From Neorhizobium galegae (lineage in GTDB: Bacteria; Pseudomonadota; Alphaproteobacteria; Rhizobiales; Rhizobiaceae), in NCBI RefSeq assembly GCF_017877055.1, contig NZ_JAGIPG010000002.1, positions 682,001 through 746,000 of the forward strand: DNA of 64,000 nt. Reading direction: 5' to 3'. The notes below the pieces were generated by a model that ran no database searches, had not been told where the DNA came from, and worked only from the letters and a program-made list of their open reading frames with translations. Shown in pieces: positions 39,471 through 46,671 of this stretch. Position numbers and translations under genes: made by a program. Within the stretch, counting starts at the first letter, position 1. The number at the start of each line of letters is the position of its first letter.

Positions 39471-40718
39471 CTAGGCGTTGAAACGCTCCGGTCTGTAGGC
39501 GGAGATGTCGATCAGCGTCTTCTCGCCGGAAATCGCTTCGGCGATCACCTGTCCAGTCACCGGTCCGAGCGTCAGGCCGTGATGCGCATGCCCGAAGGCG
39601 AACCACAGGCCGTCATGCCGCGGCGCCTTGCCGATGACCGGCATCATGTCCGGTGTGCAGGGACGGGCACCCATCCAGGGCTCTTGGTCGAGCCGCTCCG
39701 CGAGCGGGAAGATGCTGCGGGCGACTGCTTCGGCGCGCTCCAGCTGGACCGGCGTCTTGGGCGCATCGCGGCGCGCGAATTCCGCGCCGGTCGTCAGGCG
39801 GATCCCCTGGTTCATAGGCGCCAGGAAATAGCCCCGTTCGGCATCCATGGTCCAACCGTTGAGCTTGGCATTGCCCTTGGCCGCATAATGCATGTGGTAG
39901 CCGCGCTTGACGCCGACCAGGAAATTGTAGCCGAGCGGTTTTGTCACAGTGTCGGACCAGGGCCCGAGCGCCACGACGGCGTCCTTGGCTTCCACGGTGC
40001 CGTCGCCGGCGACGATACGCCAGCCGGTCTTGGTCTGCGACAGGCTTTTGGCATCGCCCTTGAGCACACGGCCGCCGAGCTTTTCGAACAGCGCCACATA
40101 GGCGCGCGTCAGGGCCAGCGGGTCCTTGACCGACCATGGGTCTTCCCAGCGCAGGCCGCCGACGAAATCGGTGGAAAGATTGGGCTCCTGCTCGGCGATA
40201 TCGGCAGGCGAGAGCTCCTTGAACGCGACGCCGTATTCCTTGCGGAGCCGTTCGGCCTCGCCGATCTCGCCGTCATGCTTGCCGCGGGTGCGGAACACCT
40301 CCGTCCAGCCGTTCTTGGCGATCAGATCCTGGGCTCCGGCTTCCTCGATCAGCTCGTTATGGGTCGCGATCGAGTGCTCGATCAACGGCGCGTAGGCGCG
40401 CGCGATCAGCTGGTGGCGGGTCAGGTTCGAATGCCACCAGTATTTCGCCAGGAACGAGGTGACCGAGGGAATGGCTTTCCAGTGATAATGCGCGTCGATG
40501 CGGTTGTTGAGCGCATAGCGCAGGATCAGGCCGAACTGCTGGGGAAAGCCATAGGGGACGACGCCTTCGCGCTGGATCAGGCCGGCATTGCCGTAGGATG
40601 TCTCCATCCCGGGTTCCTTGCGGTCGACGAGCACCACCGATTTGCCGCGCCGGGCGAGCTGCAATGCCGTCGAAACGCCGACAATGCCGGCTCCCAGCAC
40701 GATCGCATCTGCTGTCAT
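39471..40718 (-). CDS. dadA: D-amino-acid dehydrogenase-like FAD oxidoreductase
   Basis: The 415-aa flavoprotein has the N-terminal FAD motif AIVLGAGIVGVSTALQLARRG and the DadA-family segments ETSYGNAGLIQ and GHAHHGLTLGPVTGQVIAE. It would oxidise D-amino acids to keto acids, passing electrons to the respiratory chain. I use the ATG at 40716-40718; the extra seven codons of the frame begin with TTG. It lies on the same strand as the PuuB-like gene, 162 bases upstream. The small hairpin at about 39452-39468 may separate them. Confidence 0.83.
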   Translation of the reverse strand: MTADAIVLGAGIVGVSTALQLARRGKSVVLVDRKEPGMETSYGNAGLIQREGVVPYGFPQQFGLILRYALNNRIDAHYHWKAIPSVTSFLAKYWWHSNLTRHQLIARAYAPLIEHSIATHNELIEEAGAQDLIAKNGWTEVFRTRGKHDGEIGEAERLRKEYGVAFKELSPADIAEQEPNLSTDFVGGLRWEDPWSVKDPLALTRAYVALFEKLGGRVLKGDAKSLSQTKTGWRIVAGDGTVEAKDAVVALGPWSDTVTKPLGYNFLVGVKRGYHMHYAAKGNAKLNGWTMDAERGYFLAPMNQGIRLTTGAEFARRDAPKTPVQLERAEAVARSIFPLAERLDQEPWMGARPCTPDMMPVIGKAPRHDGLWFAFGHAHHGLTLGPVTGQVIAEAISGEKTLIDISAYRPERFNA

Positions 40719-40952
40719 GATCTGAATTCCATTTCCCAAGTCTTTTATAGTTCGAGGATTTCAAACATGCCGCCCGGAATGCTGCGGCGCAAATGAAAAA
40801 TCGCGGCTGCTTATATGGAATCCCTATTTCTTCACATGGCGCCTCCAATCGAAAGCCTATGGGGCCGTCGCTACCTTCTGGATCGTGCATCGGTTTCGAT
40901 GCCGGCTCCGCGCGACAACGCCGCGGGCCAATCCCAACAAGGAGTGACTGAA

Positions 40953-41132
40953 ATGTTTGGTCGTTTGGGGAGCGTTTACGTCCTGCATCTTGCTGAAGCC
41001 AAGGCCCAGCAGCATCGACTGTCGCAGCCAGATCGCCCGGTCGATGCGAATCTCGGGGTCTTCCTGAGGCTTCTGGGGGTCATCGGTCTCGGCCTCTGCG
41101 CCGCAGGTTTTGTTGCCATGATGGTGGCCTGA
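40953..41132 (+). CDS. Small single-span membrane protein (59 aa)
   Basis: The ATG at 40953 has AAGGAG (40939-40944) upstream. The first 35 residues are polar and His/Gln-rich, followed by one transmembrane helix (about residues 36-57, GVFLRLLGVIGLGLCAAGF). The longer frame from 40815 has no ribosome site. The stop is 11 bases before the next small gene and the two probably form one transcript. Function unknown. Confidence 0.7.
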   Translation: MFGRLGSVYVLHLAEAKAQQHRLSQPDRPVDANLGVFLRLLGVIGLGLCAAGFVAMMVA

Positions 41133-41143
41133 GGAGAAACACG

Positions 41144-41434
41144 ATGAACAAGGCAATGTTAAAAAGCGAACCTCCCGCGCGCGGCGCGCGTTTCATGGTC
41201 GGCCGCGATTCCAGCGGCCGCTGGATCGTCTCAGACCGCGAGGGTCGCATCGGCGGACTATTCACCGACCGGGCGTCGGCGGTGCATTTCGCCATGTTCG
41301 AAAGCGATCATGTGCCCGGTGCCGTCTGCTGCGTGCCGGAAGAAGTGACCTTGAGCCTCGGGCCGATTTTCGAAACCCCGGTCAAGGCCCCCAAGGCGAT
41401 CAGCACCCGCATGAAGATCGTCGGGCGGGCATGA
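41144..41434 (+). CDS. Conserved hypothetical protein (96 aa)
   Basis: The small soluble protein has a beta-rich core (ARFMVGRDSSGRWIVSDREG) followed by GGLFTDRASAVHFAMFE, a pattern I have seen in rhizobial hypothetical proteins resembling the DUF2188-type fold (short repeats of strand plus Gly/Arg turns). AGGAG precedes the ATG. It is part of the run of small genes ahead of kdp. No function can be given. Confidence 0.72.
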   Translation: MNKAMLKSEPPARGARFMVGRDSSGRWIVSDREGRIGGLFTDRASAVHFAMFESDHVPGAVCCVPEEVTLSLGPIFETPVKAPKAISTRMKIVGRA

Positions 41435-41445
41435 GGAGAATGCCG

Positions 41446-41562
41446 ATGTCCGGGGCCGTTTATCAGATGCGCGGACATGTCTATCCGCGCTCCCGTACTT
41501 TCGGGAAGCCGGACCATCTGCGTGCATCGAGCATCATTCTCGGCATGCAGTCATGCTGGTAG
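41446..41562 (+). CDS. Possible small protein (38 aa) in the kdp upstream gene run
   Basis: ATG at 41446 lies seven bases after AGGAG (41434-41438), which overlaps the stop of the preceding gene. The product is basic (MSGAVYQMRGHVYPRSR then RTFGKPDHLRASS) with no clear domain. A 17-codon hydrophobic frame starts inside it at 41553 and ends at TGA 41604-41606. It may be real only as a coupled leader. The evidence is the ribosome site and position alone. Confidence 0.35.
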   Translation: MSGAVYQMRGHVYPRSRTFGKPDHLRASSIILGMQSCW

Positions 41563-41634
41563 TGCTCGTGACCGCCTACGCCATAACTCTTGCGGCCGCG
41601 TCCTGAGGATAGCCGCCGCCGGAAAGAACGAAAT

Positions 41635-41660
41635 TCCTATAGGATTTTTATTTCTTTCCT
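41635..41660. promoter_or_regulatory. Palindrome plus T-rich tract upstream of kdp (candidate KdpE site or promoter)
   Basis: The perfect 10-base palindrome TCCTATAGGA (41635-41644) is followed by TTTTTATTTCTTTCC. KdpE of E. coli binds a T-rich stretch just upstream of its kdp promoter, and this tract is the best match in the 213-base spacer between the small genes and kdp. No clean -35/-10 pair was identified. Assignment is inference. Confidence 0.4.
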
Positions 41661-41750
41661 CTGCGCTCCGTCTCGAACCCCTATGCGGTCGCGCCGCATA
41701 TTAGCGTCCGGGAGATCGCGAAAGATCATCTCCAAGCCAGAAAGCATCAA

Positions 41751-41780
41751 GGTGCCGTCTTTCAGGGATGGCACCCTTTG
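41751..41780 (+). terminator. Hairpin in the kdp leader (possible attenuator)
   Basis: GGTGCC (41751-41756) and GGCACC (41770-41775) form a stem with a 13-base loop, extended by AA/TT on the outside with one bulge, then CTTTG. It lies about 45 bases before the first kdp-linked small gene, where partial termination or leader folding could adjust expression. Confidence 0.4.
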
Positions 41781-41819
41781 TCTTGTCCGGCCTCGCCTTA
41801 ACAACAGGAGTCCAGATCA

Positions 41820-41903
41820 ATGATGGACGTCATTCTACTCGGCACCGCAGTCGTCTTCTTCGGTCTCTGCTTTGCCTATACCCGCGCCTGCGACAGGCTT
41901 TGA
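41820..41903 (+). CDS. Small membrane peptide (27 aa) preceding kdpF
   Basis: ATG at 41820 has AGGAG (41806-41810) nine bases upstream. The product MMDVILLGTAVVFFGLCF, with AYTRACDRL after it, is one transmembrane helix with a short basic tail. Similar tiny proteins are often found just ahead of kdpF in proteobacteria, from memory. It ends 14 bases before the kdpF ATG, so it is almost certainly co-transcribed. A structural or regulatory role in the Kdp complex is not shown. Confidence 0.6.
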   Translation: MMDVILLGTAVVFFGLCFAYTRACDRL

Positions 41904-41917
41904 AGGGAGAAGCGCCG

Positions 41918-42007
41918 ATGATCCTCGATTATGTCCTGAGCGGTGCCGTGACCGTGTTCCTCACCGTCTACCTCACATACGCTCTCATTCGTCCCGAACG
42001 CTTCTGA
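41918..42007 (+). CDS. kdpF: K(+)-transporting ATPase subunit KdpF
   Basis: The 29-residue membrane peptide has a single helix and the family ending ALIRPERF. KdpF stabilises the KdpFABC complex. The ATG at 41918 follows AAGGGAGA. It precedes kdpA by 64 bases. Confidence 0.92.
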   Translation: MILDYVLSGAVTVFLTVYLTYALIRPERF

Positions 42008-42071
42008 AAAGAACGCTTTTGAAGAGAACCGGCGCTTTCGTCAGCTGCCGGGTATTGAAAGTTAACCCCAA

Positions 42072-43775
42072 ATGACCCTCAACGGATGGCTTCAGATCCT
42101 GCTTTATTGCGGGATCATCATCGCGCTCGTCAAACCGCTCGGCGGTTACATGACGCGTGTCTTTTCAGGCGAGCGCACTCTTCTGTCACCCGTCCTCGTT
42201 CCGATCGAACGCGGACTTTATGCCATGGCCGGCACCAGCGAGCGCGAAGACCAGCATTGGACCGCCTATGCCTTTTCGCTGCTGATGTTCAACTTGCTTG
42301 GCGTGCTCGTGCTTTACGCTTTGATGCGCCTGCAGGCGGGCCTGCCGTATAATCCGGCCGGCATGGGCGCCGTCCCGCCCGAGCTTTCCTTCAACACCGC
42401 CGTCAGCTTTGTTTCGAACACCAACTGGCAGAACTACGGTGGCGAAAGCACCATGTCCTATCTCACCCAGATGATGGGCCTCAACGTGCAGAACTTCCTG
42501 TCTGCCGCGACCGGCATGGCGATTGCCGTCGGCCTGATCCGCGCCTTTTCGCGCGTATCGGGCAAGGCGATCGGCAATTTCTGGGTCGATATGACCCGCG
42601 CCACGCTCTATATCCTGCTGCCGATCTGCGTCGTCCTGACGCTGGTCTACGTCTGGCTCGGCGTGCCGCAGACGCTCGGACCTTATGTCGAGGCAACGAC
42701 GCTGGAAGGCGCCAAGCAGACCATCGCGCTCGGCCCGGTCGCCTCGCAGCTGGCCATCAAGATGCTCGGCACCAATGGCGGCGGTTTCTTCAATGCCAAC
42801 TCCGCCCATCCGTTCGAAAACCCCGACAACATCTCCAACATGATCCAGATGCTGTCTATCTTCGCGATCGGCGCGGGTTTGACCAACGTCTTCGGCCGCA
42901 TGGTCGGCAACCAGCGCCAGGGCTGGGCGATCCTCGCTTCGATGGGCATCCTGTTCATCGTCGGCGTCGGCATCACCTACTGGGCGGAAGCGGCCGGCAA
43001 TCCTCTCATGCACCAGCTCGGCCTTGCCGGCGGTAACATGGAAGGCAAGGAAGTCCGCTTCGGCACCGCCATGTCCTCGCTGTTTGCGGTCATCACCACG
43101 GCGGCCTCCTGCGGCGCGGTCAACGCCATGCATGGCTCGTTCACCGCGCTCGGCGGCCTGATCCCGCTCATCAACATGCAGCTCGGCGAAGTCATCGTCG
43201 GCGGCGTCGGCGCTGGCTTCTACGGCATTATCCTCTTCATCATCGTCGCAGTCTTCGTGGCCGGGCTTATGGTCGGTCGTACGCCGGAATATCTCGGCAA
43301 GAAGATCGAGGCGAAGGAGATGAAAATGGCCGTGCTTGCCATCCTCTGCCTGCCGCTCGCCATGCTGGTCTTCACGGCGATTGCCACGGTCCTGCCATCC
43401 GCCGTCGCCTCGATCGGCACCGCCGGCCCGCACGGCTTCTCCGAAATCCTCTATGCCTATACGTCGGCTGCGGCCAATAACGGCTCGGCTTTCGGCGGCC
43501 TGACGGGCAATACGCCCTGGTACAACGTGACGCTCGGTATCGGCATGCTGATGGGCCGCTTCCTGGTCATCATCCCCGCCCTTGCAATTGCAGGCTCGCT
43601 GGTCGCCAAGAAGACTGTTCCGGCCTCTGCCGGCACCTTCCCGACCGACGGCCCGCTCTTCGTCGGCCTGCTGGTCGGCACGATCCTGATTGTCGGCGGC
43701 CTCACCTTCATGCCCGCTCTGGCGCTCGGCCCGGTCGTCGAACACCTGGTCATGATCGCCGGCCAGACCTTCTGA
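42072..43775 (+). CDS. kdpA: K(+)-transporting ATPase subunit KdpA
   Basis: The 567-aa potassium-channel-like subunit selects and conducts K+ for the KdpFABC pump at the inner membrane. It has about ten helices and four pore-loop segments, such as [13 protein letters not shown] (about residues 117-129) and [19 protein letters not shown] (about 233-251), typical of the K+ filter of this family. The ATG lacks a strong Shine-Dalgarno. It is followed not by kdpB directly, as usual, but by a 50-codon extra gene. Confidence 0.96.
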
Positions 43776-43795
43776 GGTAGTGAGGGAGCAGTGCC

Positions 43796-43948
43796 ATGAG
43801 CATCCGCAAAGCCCTCCGCAGACAGTCCACCCTTGCCTCGCAGAAACGAGGCAAGGGTGAGCAGAGCCCCTACGGCTCCTATGCAATTTTTATCATGACG
43901 GCGGTCATTCTTGCCGTTGTCCTCGTGATCGAAGTCTTGCGCGGCTGA
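43796..43948 (+). CDS. Extra small membrane protein (50 aa) between kdpA and kdpB
   Basis: ATG at 43796 follows GAGGGAG, 20 bases after the kdpA stop. The product has a basic N-terminus ([10 protein letters not shown]), a short linker ([10 protein letters not shown]) and one strongly hydrophobic helix ([19 protein letters not shown], about residues 30-48). Standard kdp operons have no gene here. The reading frame spans a 13-bp perfect hairpin (43828-43859). No family is recognised. The positive-inside pattern and the ribosome site argue that it is translated. Confidence 0.65.
43828..43859 (+). other. 13-bp perfect stem-loop inside the kdpA-kdpB intergenic gene
   Basis: CACCCTTGCCTCG (43828-43840) and CGAGGCAAGGGTG (43847-43859) pair without mismatch around the loop CAGAAA. 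No U-run follows. In an mRNA it would be a strong barrier to 3' exonucleases. It could set a higher kdpA than kdpB dose or slow ribosomes at this gene. Confidence 0.8.
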
Positions 43949-44004
43949 TCGACCCTTCGTCGCCTCGTTTGACAAGGCAACTCATTTCAAAGCTGGAGTC
44001 TCTT

Positions 44005-46092
44005 ATGAGCCAGGCAAAATCCGCGAGTATCATGGATAGTCGCATCCTCATTCCGGCCGTGGGAGCCGCTTTCAAGAAGCTCAACCCGCGGACCCTCTCC
44101 AAGAACCCGGTCATGTTCGTCGTGGCCACGGTGTCGGTCCTCACAACCGTGCTTCTCCTCCGCGATCTCGCGGCCGGCAACGGCAATCTCGGCTTCTCCT
44201 TCCAGATCAACGTCTGGCTCTGGTTCACCGTGCTGTTTGCCAACTTCGCCGAAGCGGTCGCCGAAGGCCGCGGCAAGGCGCAGGCGGATTCACTGCGCAA
44301 GGCCCGCACCGAAACCCAGGCCAAGCTGCTCTCGGGCAGCGACCGCACCCAGTACAAGATGGTCGCCGGCACCAGCCTCAAGGTCGGCGACGTCGTGCTC
44401 GTCGAACCCGGCGACATCATTCCCTCCGATGGCGAAGTCATCGAGGGGGTAGCCTCGGTCAACGAAGCTGCGATCACCGGTGAATCCGCCCCGGTCATCC
44501 GTGAATCCGGCGGCGACCGCTCGGCCGTGACCGGCGGCACGCAGGTGCTGTCCGACTGGATCCGCGTCCGCATCACCGCGGCTGCCGGCTCGACCTTCCT
44601 CGACCGGATGATCTCGCTCGTCGAAGGCGCCGAGCGCCAGAAGACGCCGAACGAAATCGCGCTCAACATCCTGCTCGCCGGCATGACGCTGATCTTCGTG
44701 CTCGCCACCGCAACGATCCCGAGCTTTGCGATCTATGCCGGCGGCTCGATCCCGATCATCATCCTCGTCGCCCTGTTCGTGACGCTGATCCCGACCACGA
44801 TCGGTGCGCTGCTCTCGGCGATAGGCATCGCCGGCATGGACCGTCTCGTCCGCTTCAACGTGCTCGCCATGTCCGGCCGCGCGGTGGAAGCTGCCGGCGA
44901 CGTCGATACGCTCCTCCTCGACAAAACCGGCACGATCACGCTCGGCAACCGCCAAGCCACCTCGTTCCGCCCGGTCCGCGGCGTCTCCGAACAGGATCTC
45001 GCCGATGCGGCCCAGCTCGCCTCGCTTGCCGACGAAACGCCGGAAGGCCGTTCCATCGTCGTGCTCGCCAAGGAGAAATACGCCATCCGCGGCCGCGACA
45101 TGGCGAGCCTCAAGGCGACCTTCGTCCCCTTCACCGCCCAGACCCGCATGAGCGGCGTCGACCTTGAAGGCTCCCAGATCCGCAAGGGCGCGGTCGATGC
45201 AGTCCTCGCCTATGTCGGCTCGGGCACGATGCCGGTCTCCGGCAATGCGGCAATCGCCGTCAGCCCGCAATCCGAGATCGTGCGCGAGTTGCAGGCGATC
45301 GCCGACGAAATCGCCAAGGCCGGCGGCACGCCACTCGCCGTTGCCCGTGACGGCAAGCTGCTCGGCGTCGTCCAGCTGAAGGACATCGTCAAGGGCGGCA
45401 TCCGCGAACGTTTCTCGGAACTGCGCCGCATGGGCATCCGCACCGTGATGATCACCGGCGACAACCCGATGACCGCGGCGGCGATTGCCGCCGAAGCCGG
45501 CGTCGACGACTTCCTTGCCCAGGCGACCCCGGAGAACAAGCTGACGCTGATCCGCGAGGAACAGGCCAAAGGCAAGCTCGTCGCCATGTGCGGCGACGGC
45601 ACCAACGATGCCCCGGCGCTTGCCCAGGCCGATGTCGGCGTCGCCATGAACACCGGCACGGTCGCTGCCCGTGAGGCCGGCAACATGGTCGATCTCGACT
45701 CGGACCCGACCAAGCTCATCGAGATCGTCGAGATCGGCAAGCAGCTCCTCATGACCCGCGGCGCGCTGACCACCTTCTCGATCGCCAACGACATAGCCAA
45801 ATATTTCGCCATCATTCCGGCGATGTTCCTGACCTTCTATCCGCAGCTCGGCGTGCTCAACATCATGGGGCTGGCCACGCCGCAAAGCGCCATCCTGTCG
45901 GCGATCATCTTCAACGCGCTGATCATCGTCGTGCTGATCCCGCTGTCGCTGAAGGGCGTCAAATACCGCGCCATCGGTGCCGGTGCGCTGCTCTCGCGCA
46001 ACCTGCTCGTCTATGGTCTCGGCGGTATCATCGTCCCCTTCATCGGCATCAAGGCGATCGACATGATCATCACCGCGATCGGTCTCGCTTAA
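44005..46092 (+). CDS. kdpB: K(+)-transporting ATPase subunit KdpB
   Basis: The 695-aa P-type ATPase supplies energy to the Kdp pump. It has the actuator motif TGES, the phosphorylation site [14 protein letters not shown] (about residue 310), the nucleotide-domain and hinge motif [19 protein letters not shown], and seven membrane helices. I start at the ATG at 44005, with TGGAG upstream; the frame is open from 43969. It is followed 12 bases later by kdpC. Confidence 0.97.
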
Positions 46093-46104
46093 GGAGAAAT
46101 GACA

Positions 46105-46671
46105 ATGTTCAAGCAACTTCGTCCTGCGATCGTTTTGATCGTCGCCACCACGGCCATTACCGGCCTGATCTACCCCTTCGCCATGACCGGCATCGCGCAA
46201 GCCGTCTTCCCCACCCAGGCGAACGGCAGTCTGATCGAGAAGGAGGGAACCGTTGTCGGCTCGGCCCTGATCGGCCAGGCCTTTACCGGCGACCAGTATT
46301 TCCACGGCCGCCCGTCTGCCGCCGGCGACGGTTACAATGCCGCCTCGTCCTCCGGCTCCAACCTCGGCCCGACCAGCGCCAAGCTGATAGACCGGGTCAA
46401 GGCGGACTACGAGGCCGCCAAGGCCACCAACCCGAGCGCGGACGTGCCGATCGACCTCGTCACCGCATCCGGCAGCGGCCTCGACCCGCATGTCTCGCCG
46501 GAAGCTGCCCTCTTCCAGGTGCCGCGCGTCGCCAAGGCTCGGAAAATGGACGAGGCCGCGGTCCGCGCGCTCGTCGAGGCCCATGTCGAAGGTCCCGAAC
46601 TCGGTTTCCTCGGCGAACCTGTGGTCAATGTGCTGGCGCTCAACATGGCGCTTGACGGCGCTCGTTCTTAA
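46105..46671 (+). CDS. kdpC: K(+)-transporting ATPase subunit KdpC
   Basis: This 188-aa subunit has one N-terminal membrane helix ([18 protein letters not shown]) and a periplasmic domain with KdpC motifs [14 protein letters not shown] and [14 protein letters not shown]. It increases the affinity of KdpFABC for K+. AAGGAG (46091-46096) leaves 8 bases to the ATG at 46105 and only 2 to the ATG at 46099, so I use 46105. It is followed by kdpD. Confidence 0.96.

Follow-up and report, generated by a model that had tools for sequence, protein, structure and literature searches.

A small membrane-protein gene with an internal hairpin between kdpA and kdpB of Neorhizobium and its relatives: a candidate accessory gene and mRNA element of the Kdp pump

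Introduction

KdpFABC is a pump composed of four subunits. Small proteins with a single helix are known as regulators of P-type ATPases, and examples of this behavior are phospholamban and sarcolipin, which act on SERCA, as well as MgtR and MgtS. The kdp genes of Sinorhizobium fredii were shown by RT-PCR over the kdpA-kdpB junction to form one kdpFABC operon, and in the same report Kdp-based adaptation to low K+ is described as relevant in nodulation (PMC9239096). At the RNA level, the closest described case is the cip-cel operon of Clostridium cellulolyticum, in which intercistronic stem-loops are reported to set the transcript ratios through selective RNA processing and stabilisation (PMC4423207). 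The analysis presented here concerns a kdp locus of Neorhizobium galegae, in which a small membrane-protein gene and a hairpin share the junction between kdpA and kdpB.

The kdp Operon of the Window

The window, which is the whole analysed stretch of 64,000 nucleotides, carries the kdp genes on the forward strand. They comprise an intact kdpF of 29 aa (41918-42007; PF09604 at 41.2 bits, NF011342 at 54.8 bits), kdpA (42072-43775; TIGR00680, 764 bits), kdpB (44005-46092, with the ATG at 44005; TIGR01497, 1028 bits) and kdpC (46099-46671), the latter named from the gene order and the equal position in annotated relatives. Between kdpA and kdpB, on the same strand, lies an open reading frame (43796-43948) for which the name kdpX was coined in this analysis. 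It begins with an ATG 20 nt beyond the kdpA stop, and its product of 50 aa consists of a basic N-terminus, a linker and one transmembrane helix (residues 27-49). The ribosome binding site, GAGGGAG (43782-43788, forward strand), is placed directly 3′ of the kdpA stop and 7 nt 5′ of the ATG, and in several relatives GAGG or GGAG directly follows or overlaps the kdpA stop. The first-pass annotation had proposed the 50-codon frame with this site and, from it, an additional gene in the kdp operon. The frame is confirmed and the proposal is borne out, since kdpF is intact and separate, and kdpX is thus an extra gene rather than kdpF.

The leader of the operon contains two other small features. A hydrophobic frame of 27 aa (MMDVILLG...; 41820-41903) directly precedes kdpF and is 74-81% identical in three other genera, and the family search with it gave a sub-threshold BcsF match only. 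A stem of 11 pairs with CTTTGTCTTG after it (41751-41775) lies between the promoter block described below and the first small frame and is terminator-like in appearance; it is among the 2 candidates of the terminator scan, where 2.2 are expected by chance.

KdpX as a Protein-Coding Gene

The profile search detects kdpX in 26 of the 57 genomes of the window's genus, in 24 of them between kdpA and kdpB and in two as an orphan. The genus-profile matches at 19 loci come from Neorhizobium galegae, N. vignae, N. alkalisoli, Rhizobium wenxiniae, R. smilacinae, Xaviernesmea oryzae and others. Conservation within the genus covers the start, the initial codons and the helix; the linker is variable, and the length ranges from 50 to 58 aa (48-78 aa over all loci read). 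The dN/dS of the 22 distinct genus genes, calculated over all pairs (NG86/JC), is 0.19 for the N-terminus, 0.40 for the helix and 0.62 for the hairpin codons. The helix of seven Rhizobium kdpX genes gives 0.35, and the two orphan genes give 0.13 for the helix and 0.24 for the whole frame. The pN/pS of the helix is 0.48 in frame versus 0.72 and 1.12 in the shifted frames. Judged from these substitution patterns, kdpX is a protein-coding gene under purifying selection on its N-terminus and helix.

The single chain modelled by AlphaFold has two helices in all, one of which spans residues 27-49, and the mean pLDDT reaches 92 over the last 20 residues (31-50), 60 over residues 21-30 and 74.7 overall; the one strong helix noted at first is therefore supported. 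KdpX of the window and of ten relatives matched no Pfam or NCBIfam family above the cut-off and neither of the KdpF models PF09604 and TIGR02115 at E<=1, and the search of PDB sequences with KdpX gave no family. Across families, the KdpX proteins have little in common: the helix begins with S-x-x-I-L, and the linker frequently carries PR; all KdpX-like frames are likely, on their sequences, to be of common descent. In the PLSDB annotation tables, which are incomplete, kdpX is an unnamed hypothetical protein in four of the 20 named records (R. tumorigenes, R. leguminosarum 9B and two of Phyllobacterium), and nothing is listed at the ORF in four others (WSM1325, Sinorhizobium sp. B11, R. daejeonense and WSM2304). 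Among the remaining 12, nine have no or almost no annotation and three are without the ORF (CFN42, N324 and hidalgonense).

These data bear on the possibility that kdpX is a translated coupling or leader frame, in which the act of translation matters, by re-initiation into kdpB or by protection from Rho, and the peptide does not. Such a frame would fit the position of the start, which is mostly 1-23 nt past the kdpA stop, the 4-nt overlap of the kdpX stop with the kdpB start in some genera, the fast divergence of the sequence, and the fact that the gene can be absent. Purifying selection on the helix (dN/dS 0.13-0.40) and the N-terminus is, however, not what it predicts, nor is the recurrence of the S-x-x-IL motif across families, and the two orphans keep a constrained frame without an adjoining kdpB. 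This explanation is considered quite unlikely.

Distribution of kdpX and Its Relation to the KdpB Type

When it was applied beyond the genus, the genus profile A1 gave matches in 13 of 297 genomes (G000, G268, G235 and G207, which were followed up, and nine weaker ones). Most of the relatives outside the genus were missed by this profile, and for that reason the kdpA-kdpB spacers were read directly. A tblastn search of four KdpX proteins against plasmids, with zero matches for three of them and one place for the fourth, is too weak for this gene, as many plasmid records carry it all the same. The spacers were scored by a rule that accepts an ATG or GTG at most 40 nt from the kdpA stop, a length of 40-90 aa and a KD19 of at least 1.9; G143 and a 112-aa frame in L240 escape it, and one doubtful ORF (G107) is counted.

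A KdpX-type frame was found before kdpB at 68 of the 117 kdpA-kdpB loci whose KdpB shares 65% identity or more with that of the window at the N-terminus, and at one of the 56 loci with the other KdpB type, the doubtful ORF of G107; the related genomes behind these counts are not independent. The genus contributes 24 of 28 loci and the family 21 of 53, which become 18 of 50 (and the total 65 of 114) without G268, G235 and G207, genomes added to the family sample owing to their match with profile A1. The named plasmid records contribute 16 of 20 and the other families of the order 7 of 16, in f16, f34, f42 and f50. The family spacers are 80 hand-picked from 145 kdpA places, all above 700 bits and a subset of those. 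The named records are 20 of 160, chosen for variety, and the order survey covers 30 of 94 places, reduced to 25 by the removal of four from the window's family and one without kdpB.

The other 49 loci of the same KdpB type fail the rule, e.g., those of R. etli CFN42, R. hidalgonense, G009 and G019, and the gap between kdpA and kdpB in the two named species is just 65 nt. On a quick KdpB tree, the presence of kdpX changes at least 25 times, a count in which gain and loss are not distinguished. The gene is dispensable or replaceable, as indicated by the 49 loci without it and by the two orphans, and this speaks against an obligate subunit.

Three types of kdp operon are held by the genus of the window: kdpA-kdpX-kdpB with a long spacer (A-X-B), kdpA-kdpB with a spacer of 10-15 nt (once 36 nt) and a KdpB about 57-63% identical (A-B), and kdpF-kdpX-kdpB with a divergent KdpA (F-X-B). 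Their co-occurrence in one genus suggests the replacement or transfer of the whole operon. Two spacers of individual genomes also deserve mention. G077 (L114) is without kdpX, and its spacer is filled by the palindromic sequence CCCTCCCC/GGGGAGGG; the ends of KdpA and KdpB that were compared show 96-100% identity with the window despite the missing gene. In the 102-nt spacer of G031 (L102), seemingly just helix-like kdpX codons are left, right after the kdpA stop, together with a different stem of 14 pairs, where a wobble or one mismatch is allowed.

Rearranged Operons and Orphan Copies

Some genomes possess a divergent KdpA (~550-577 bits), with kdpB located 5′ of kdpA and kdpF 5′ of kdpB. 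The sample of this F-type consists of 18 upstream regions (five from the genus, 13 from the family) and three more, with G252 and G125 left out for their partial KdpA. In all 21 operons kdpB is upstream of kdpA, in all four checked kdpC is 3′ of kdpA, and in 17 of the 21 a KdpX-like ORF is located between kdpF and kdpB, the start codons of several of these ORFs having been picked by eye. The quick tree, in which 58 of 133 inner branches are weak, places 18 of the 21 F-type kdpB genes in one group nested among the A-type kdpB. This nesting makes a single main rearrangement that carried kdpX along with kdpB the likeliest history. Linkage of kdpX to the kdp structural genes is found across lineages, at 68 of 117 A-B loci and 17 of 21 F-B loci, and the retention of kdpX before kdpB in the F-type operons provides the best, sequence-based indication that the peptide may belong to Kdp.

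The orphan copies, away from kdpB, occur in two genomes (G015 and G034), each of which also has an F-X-B copy. They occupy what looks like an old kdp site, beside a gene which we take, from its sequence, to be of the CorA type.

The Upstream Paralogue and the Promoter Block

A second small membrane-protein frame with the build of KdpX (YPR motif, helix start S-x-x-IL) is situated 5′ of the kdp promoter. In the window it is frameshifted (41446-41606, forward strand), and it is intact in relatives; further copies are present at L012:1202-1369 and in L043, L076, L096 and L098. Alignment A4 combines three rows of this paralogue with 21 rows of KdpX. The conserved promoter-like block of the kdp operon (41632-41702, forward strand), which includes TTCCTATA..., carries repeated TTCCTAT and TCTCGAACCCCTATGCGG, both in the window and in L012 (1355-1470). 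In the scan of upstream stretches, its core motif was present in 10 of 15 A-X-B stretches of the genus (window included), in two of three F-X-B stretches and in one of two orphans, and in none of the three named Rhizobium/Sinorhizobium records. Part of the block precedes the orphan kdpX of G015, and the block was not found before that of G034.

Such copies would be expected if KdpX were a small membrane protein whose own target lies elsewhere, e.g., another K+ or Mg2+ transporter or KdpD, and were merely co-expressed with Kdp. The orphans beside the presumed CorA-type gene, the kdp-like promoter block in front of the G015 copy, and the location of the paralogue 5′ of the kdp promoter all point in this direction. 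The constant place of kdpX immediately 5′ of kdpB, in A-X-B and F-X-B operons alike, points the other way, and the explanation is regarded as unlikely, while carrying appreciable weight.

The Hairpin in the Window

The first-pass annotation had also described a mismatch-free 13-bp stem with a 6-base loop inside the frame, and the stem is there, with its arms at 43828-43840 and 43847-43859 of the forward strand. The hairpin (43828-43859) covers codons 11-22 of kdpX, about 50 nt 3′ of the kdpA stop. The folding energy of its 60-nt region is -28.7 kcal/mol, as against -15.5 +/- 2.8 in dinucleotide shuffles (z -4.65), none of 200 of which does as well. Of 1000 recodings of codons 8-27 that preserve the protein, 1.1% reach the stability of the window's mRNA. 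The opposite strand is more stable still (-37.8, z -6.36), because the C-A pair next to the loop is a G-U on that strand, and the window alone therefore cannot tell which strand matters. An Rfam search of 40500-46500 gave nothing at the gathering score and a sub-threshold sR1 match inside kdpA only. In the 6.35-Mb assembly G000, the hairpin arms (inner 11 bp, loop of 3-9 nt) have a single occurrence, in a search for exact matches from which diverged copies can escape; with this single exact copy, a dispersed palindromic repeat of the REP or RIME kind is unlikely.

A strong, G+C-rich stem between two cistrons could end transcription before kdpB as an intrinsic terminator, or attenuate it. The stem is, however, followed by AGCAGAGCC, with no T run, it is absent from the list of the terminator scan, and it resides inside a conserved frame, which leaves this function very unlikely.

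Conservation of the Hairpin Across Relatives

The genus stems were compared in alignment A2, which excludes the two orphans and contains identical 28-nt stems once (19 distinct from 24 genomes). In this set, 91.7% of the cells are paired and two-sided changes affect seven of 12 pairs; the ten stems of Rhizobium show 98.3% and eight of 12, respectively. The covariation equals 0.350 in the genus, versus 0.185 for shuffled (0/500) and at most 0.142 for slid alignments, and 0.407 in Rhizobium, versus 0.163 (0/500) and at most 0.124. Compensatory changes exceed both controls in both sets, but each control is biased toward the structure, as the stem was taken from the very sequences counted, which favours it over slid alignments, and relatedness inflates the shuffle control. 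The G-U cells outnumber the A-C cells 16 to 4 in the genus stems, which favours the mRNA strand, and the 1 to 1 of Rhizobium is uninformative.

Within the first 84 nt, a significant hairpin (p<=0.05) is present in 51 of 66 distinct A-X-B genes, in 43 of them at p<=0.01, and 38 of the 51 have a 4-nt loop. The left arm starts 22-53 nt into the ORF, and the stems have 8-17 pairs. The kdpB controls of the same loci are significant in 4 of 66 kdpB starts and in 3 of 67. The helix segments of kdpX, used as another control, reach p<=0.05 in 18 of 64, and part of the hairpin signal is thus a matter of composition. The other 15 of the 66 genes are without a significant hairpin, and the stems of G002, G003 and G012 are clearly weakened within the genus. 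In the recoding control, 15 of the 24 kdp-linked genus genes give p<0.05 and nine give p>0.05.

The excess in the helix segments over the kdpB controls, the high G+C, the linker codons rich in Arg, Gly and Pro, and the different palindromic repeat in the spacer of G077 could all be cited for a hairpin that arises incidentally from the codon and amino-acid composition or is the relic of a palindromic repeat. The compensatory changes, the low recoding values in most genus genes, the one copy in the genome and the rarity of hairpins in kdpB of the same loci contradict such an origin, to which hardly any probability is assigned.

The hairpin and the peptide differ in the company they keep. None of the 17 F-X-B genes has a significant hairpin, and the pairing is degraded in both orphans; the Fisher value for the contrast of hairpin counts takes no account of the relatedness of the genomes. 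Conversely, in R. etli 8C-3 the kdpX frame is broken and a perfect 12-bp stem is kept, and in G274 and G181 a strong stem is found in a kdpA-kdpB spacer without a TM ORF. The hairpin therefore tracks the kdpA-kdpB junction while the peptide tracks kdpB, and in terms of sequence the hairpin is a second conserved layer, separable from the peptide. The relatives could have kept the hairpin alone, which would have told against the gene proposed at first; the frame itself is conserved, with a dN/dS of 0.1-0.4 outside the hairpin codons, and the hairpin is conserved separately from it, tied to the junction.

The same observations weigh on the idea that the hairpin serves KdpX itself, either by slowing the ribosome for co-translational insertion of the helix or by limiting KdpX synthesis. 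This idea is consistent with the fixed place just 5′ of the helix codons and with the paralogue, whose best hairpin coincides with the corresponding YPR codons in 11 of the 13 copies looked at, as a raw count. A stem required by the protein would, however, hardly be missing from the F-X-B genes and degraded in the orphans, where the protein is kept, nor would it persist in R. etli 8C-3, G274 and G181, and we assign the idea a low probability.

Proposed Role of KdpX and of the Hairpin

The first-pass annotation had suggested a further Kdp subunit or regulator and a hairpin able to unbalance the levels of kdpA and kdpB, and the comparisons support this in part. The explanation which we prefer, and to which a little better than even probability is given on the sequence comparisons, combines two parts: KdpX would be an undescribed single-helix protein that serves Kdp as an accessory subunit or a regulator, and an intra-operon mRNA element, the hairpin, would set the output of kdpFA versus kdpXBC. 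In this combined explanation, the kdp mRNA would yield a small membrane protein directly before KdpB, with its basic N-terminus predicted to be cytoplasmic by the positive-inside rule. KdpX would then reside beside KdpB in the membrane, most likely to serve the KdpFABC of Hyphomicrobiales as a fifth, KdpF-like subunit that is accessory and not essential, or to regulate its activity. In most operons where kdpX follows kdpA, the linker codons would form the hairpin on the mRNA about 40-60 nt past kdpA. As in cip-cel, it would most likely act in processing or stability, by protecting or delimiting the kdpFA portion of the transcript and so setting its dose against kdpXBC. As the stem is located inside the frame, ribosomes arriving from kdpA can probably keep it open, and the translation of kdpX would open the hairpin.

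A bolder version of the proposal is put forward tentatively, as something possible and rather doubtful as a whole. It describes a fifth, single-helix Kdp subunit or regulator of Hyphomicrobiales, inherited with kdpB through rearrangements, whose coding sequence doubles as a fast-evolving RNA switch conserved in shape. Ribosomes finishing kdpA and translating kdpX would keep the stem open, and the closed stem would fix the channel half (kdpFA) against the motor half (kdpXBC).

One short stretch thus seems to serve both the make-up of the pump and the gene dosage in many root-nodule bacteria and their relatives. With a fifth gene before kdpB over much of an order, the pump would gain a structural or regulatory component that is absent from the E. 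coli complex, and the gene is unnamed or unlisted in the records examined, even in studied symbionts such as R. leguminosarum. The A-X-B operons, where the hairpin is usual, and the F-X-B operons, where there is none, form a clean natural contrast for the relation between intra-operon RNA structure and subunit dosage. As the RNA element overlaps a membrane-protein frame, both can be probed by silent mutations.

Comparison with Known Systems

The first-pass annotation knew of no description of such a gene, and this is borne out within the open-access full-text literature, where searches for a kdpX-like gene found none. The available extracts of PMC10654040 make no mention of an extra kdp gene, and the main text of the S. 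meliloti small-proteome paper (PMC10117765) contains "kdp" zero times. The S. fredii operon resembles that of the window in the pump and in the control by KdpDE, and its description, in the extracts available, names F, A, B and C only (PMC9239096). Another S. fredii record, CCBAU 25509, which may differ from the strain of that work, carries kdpX and an 11-bp hairpin at the kdpA-kdpB junction.

Among known proteins, KdpX is similar to KdpF (PF09604, TIGR02115) in having one short transmembrane helix and in being encoded in the kdp operon next to the gene of a large subunit. It differs from KdpF by the basic N-terminus and the linker before the helix, and it coexists with an intact kdpF in the window. 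In size, topology and the genetic or functional pairing with a P-type ATPase, KdpX is comparable to phospholamban, sarcolipin, MgtR and MgtS, and its regulation of Kdp is putative. The hairpin resembles the cip-cel elements (PMC4423207) in being a stable stem-loop placed between cistrons whose products are subunits of a single complex; it differs in that the stem lies within a protein-coding frame, in a different phylum, with a processing site that is here hypothetical. The parts of the locus thus resemble known kinds, i.e., KdpF-like accessory helices and intercistronic stems, and their combination appears to be new.
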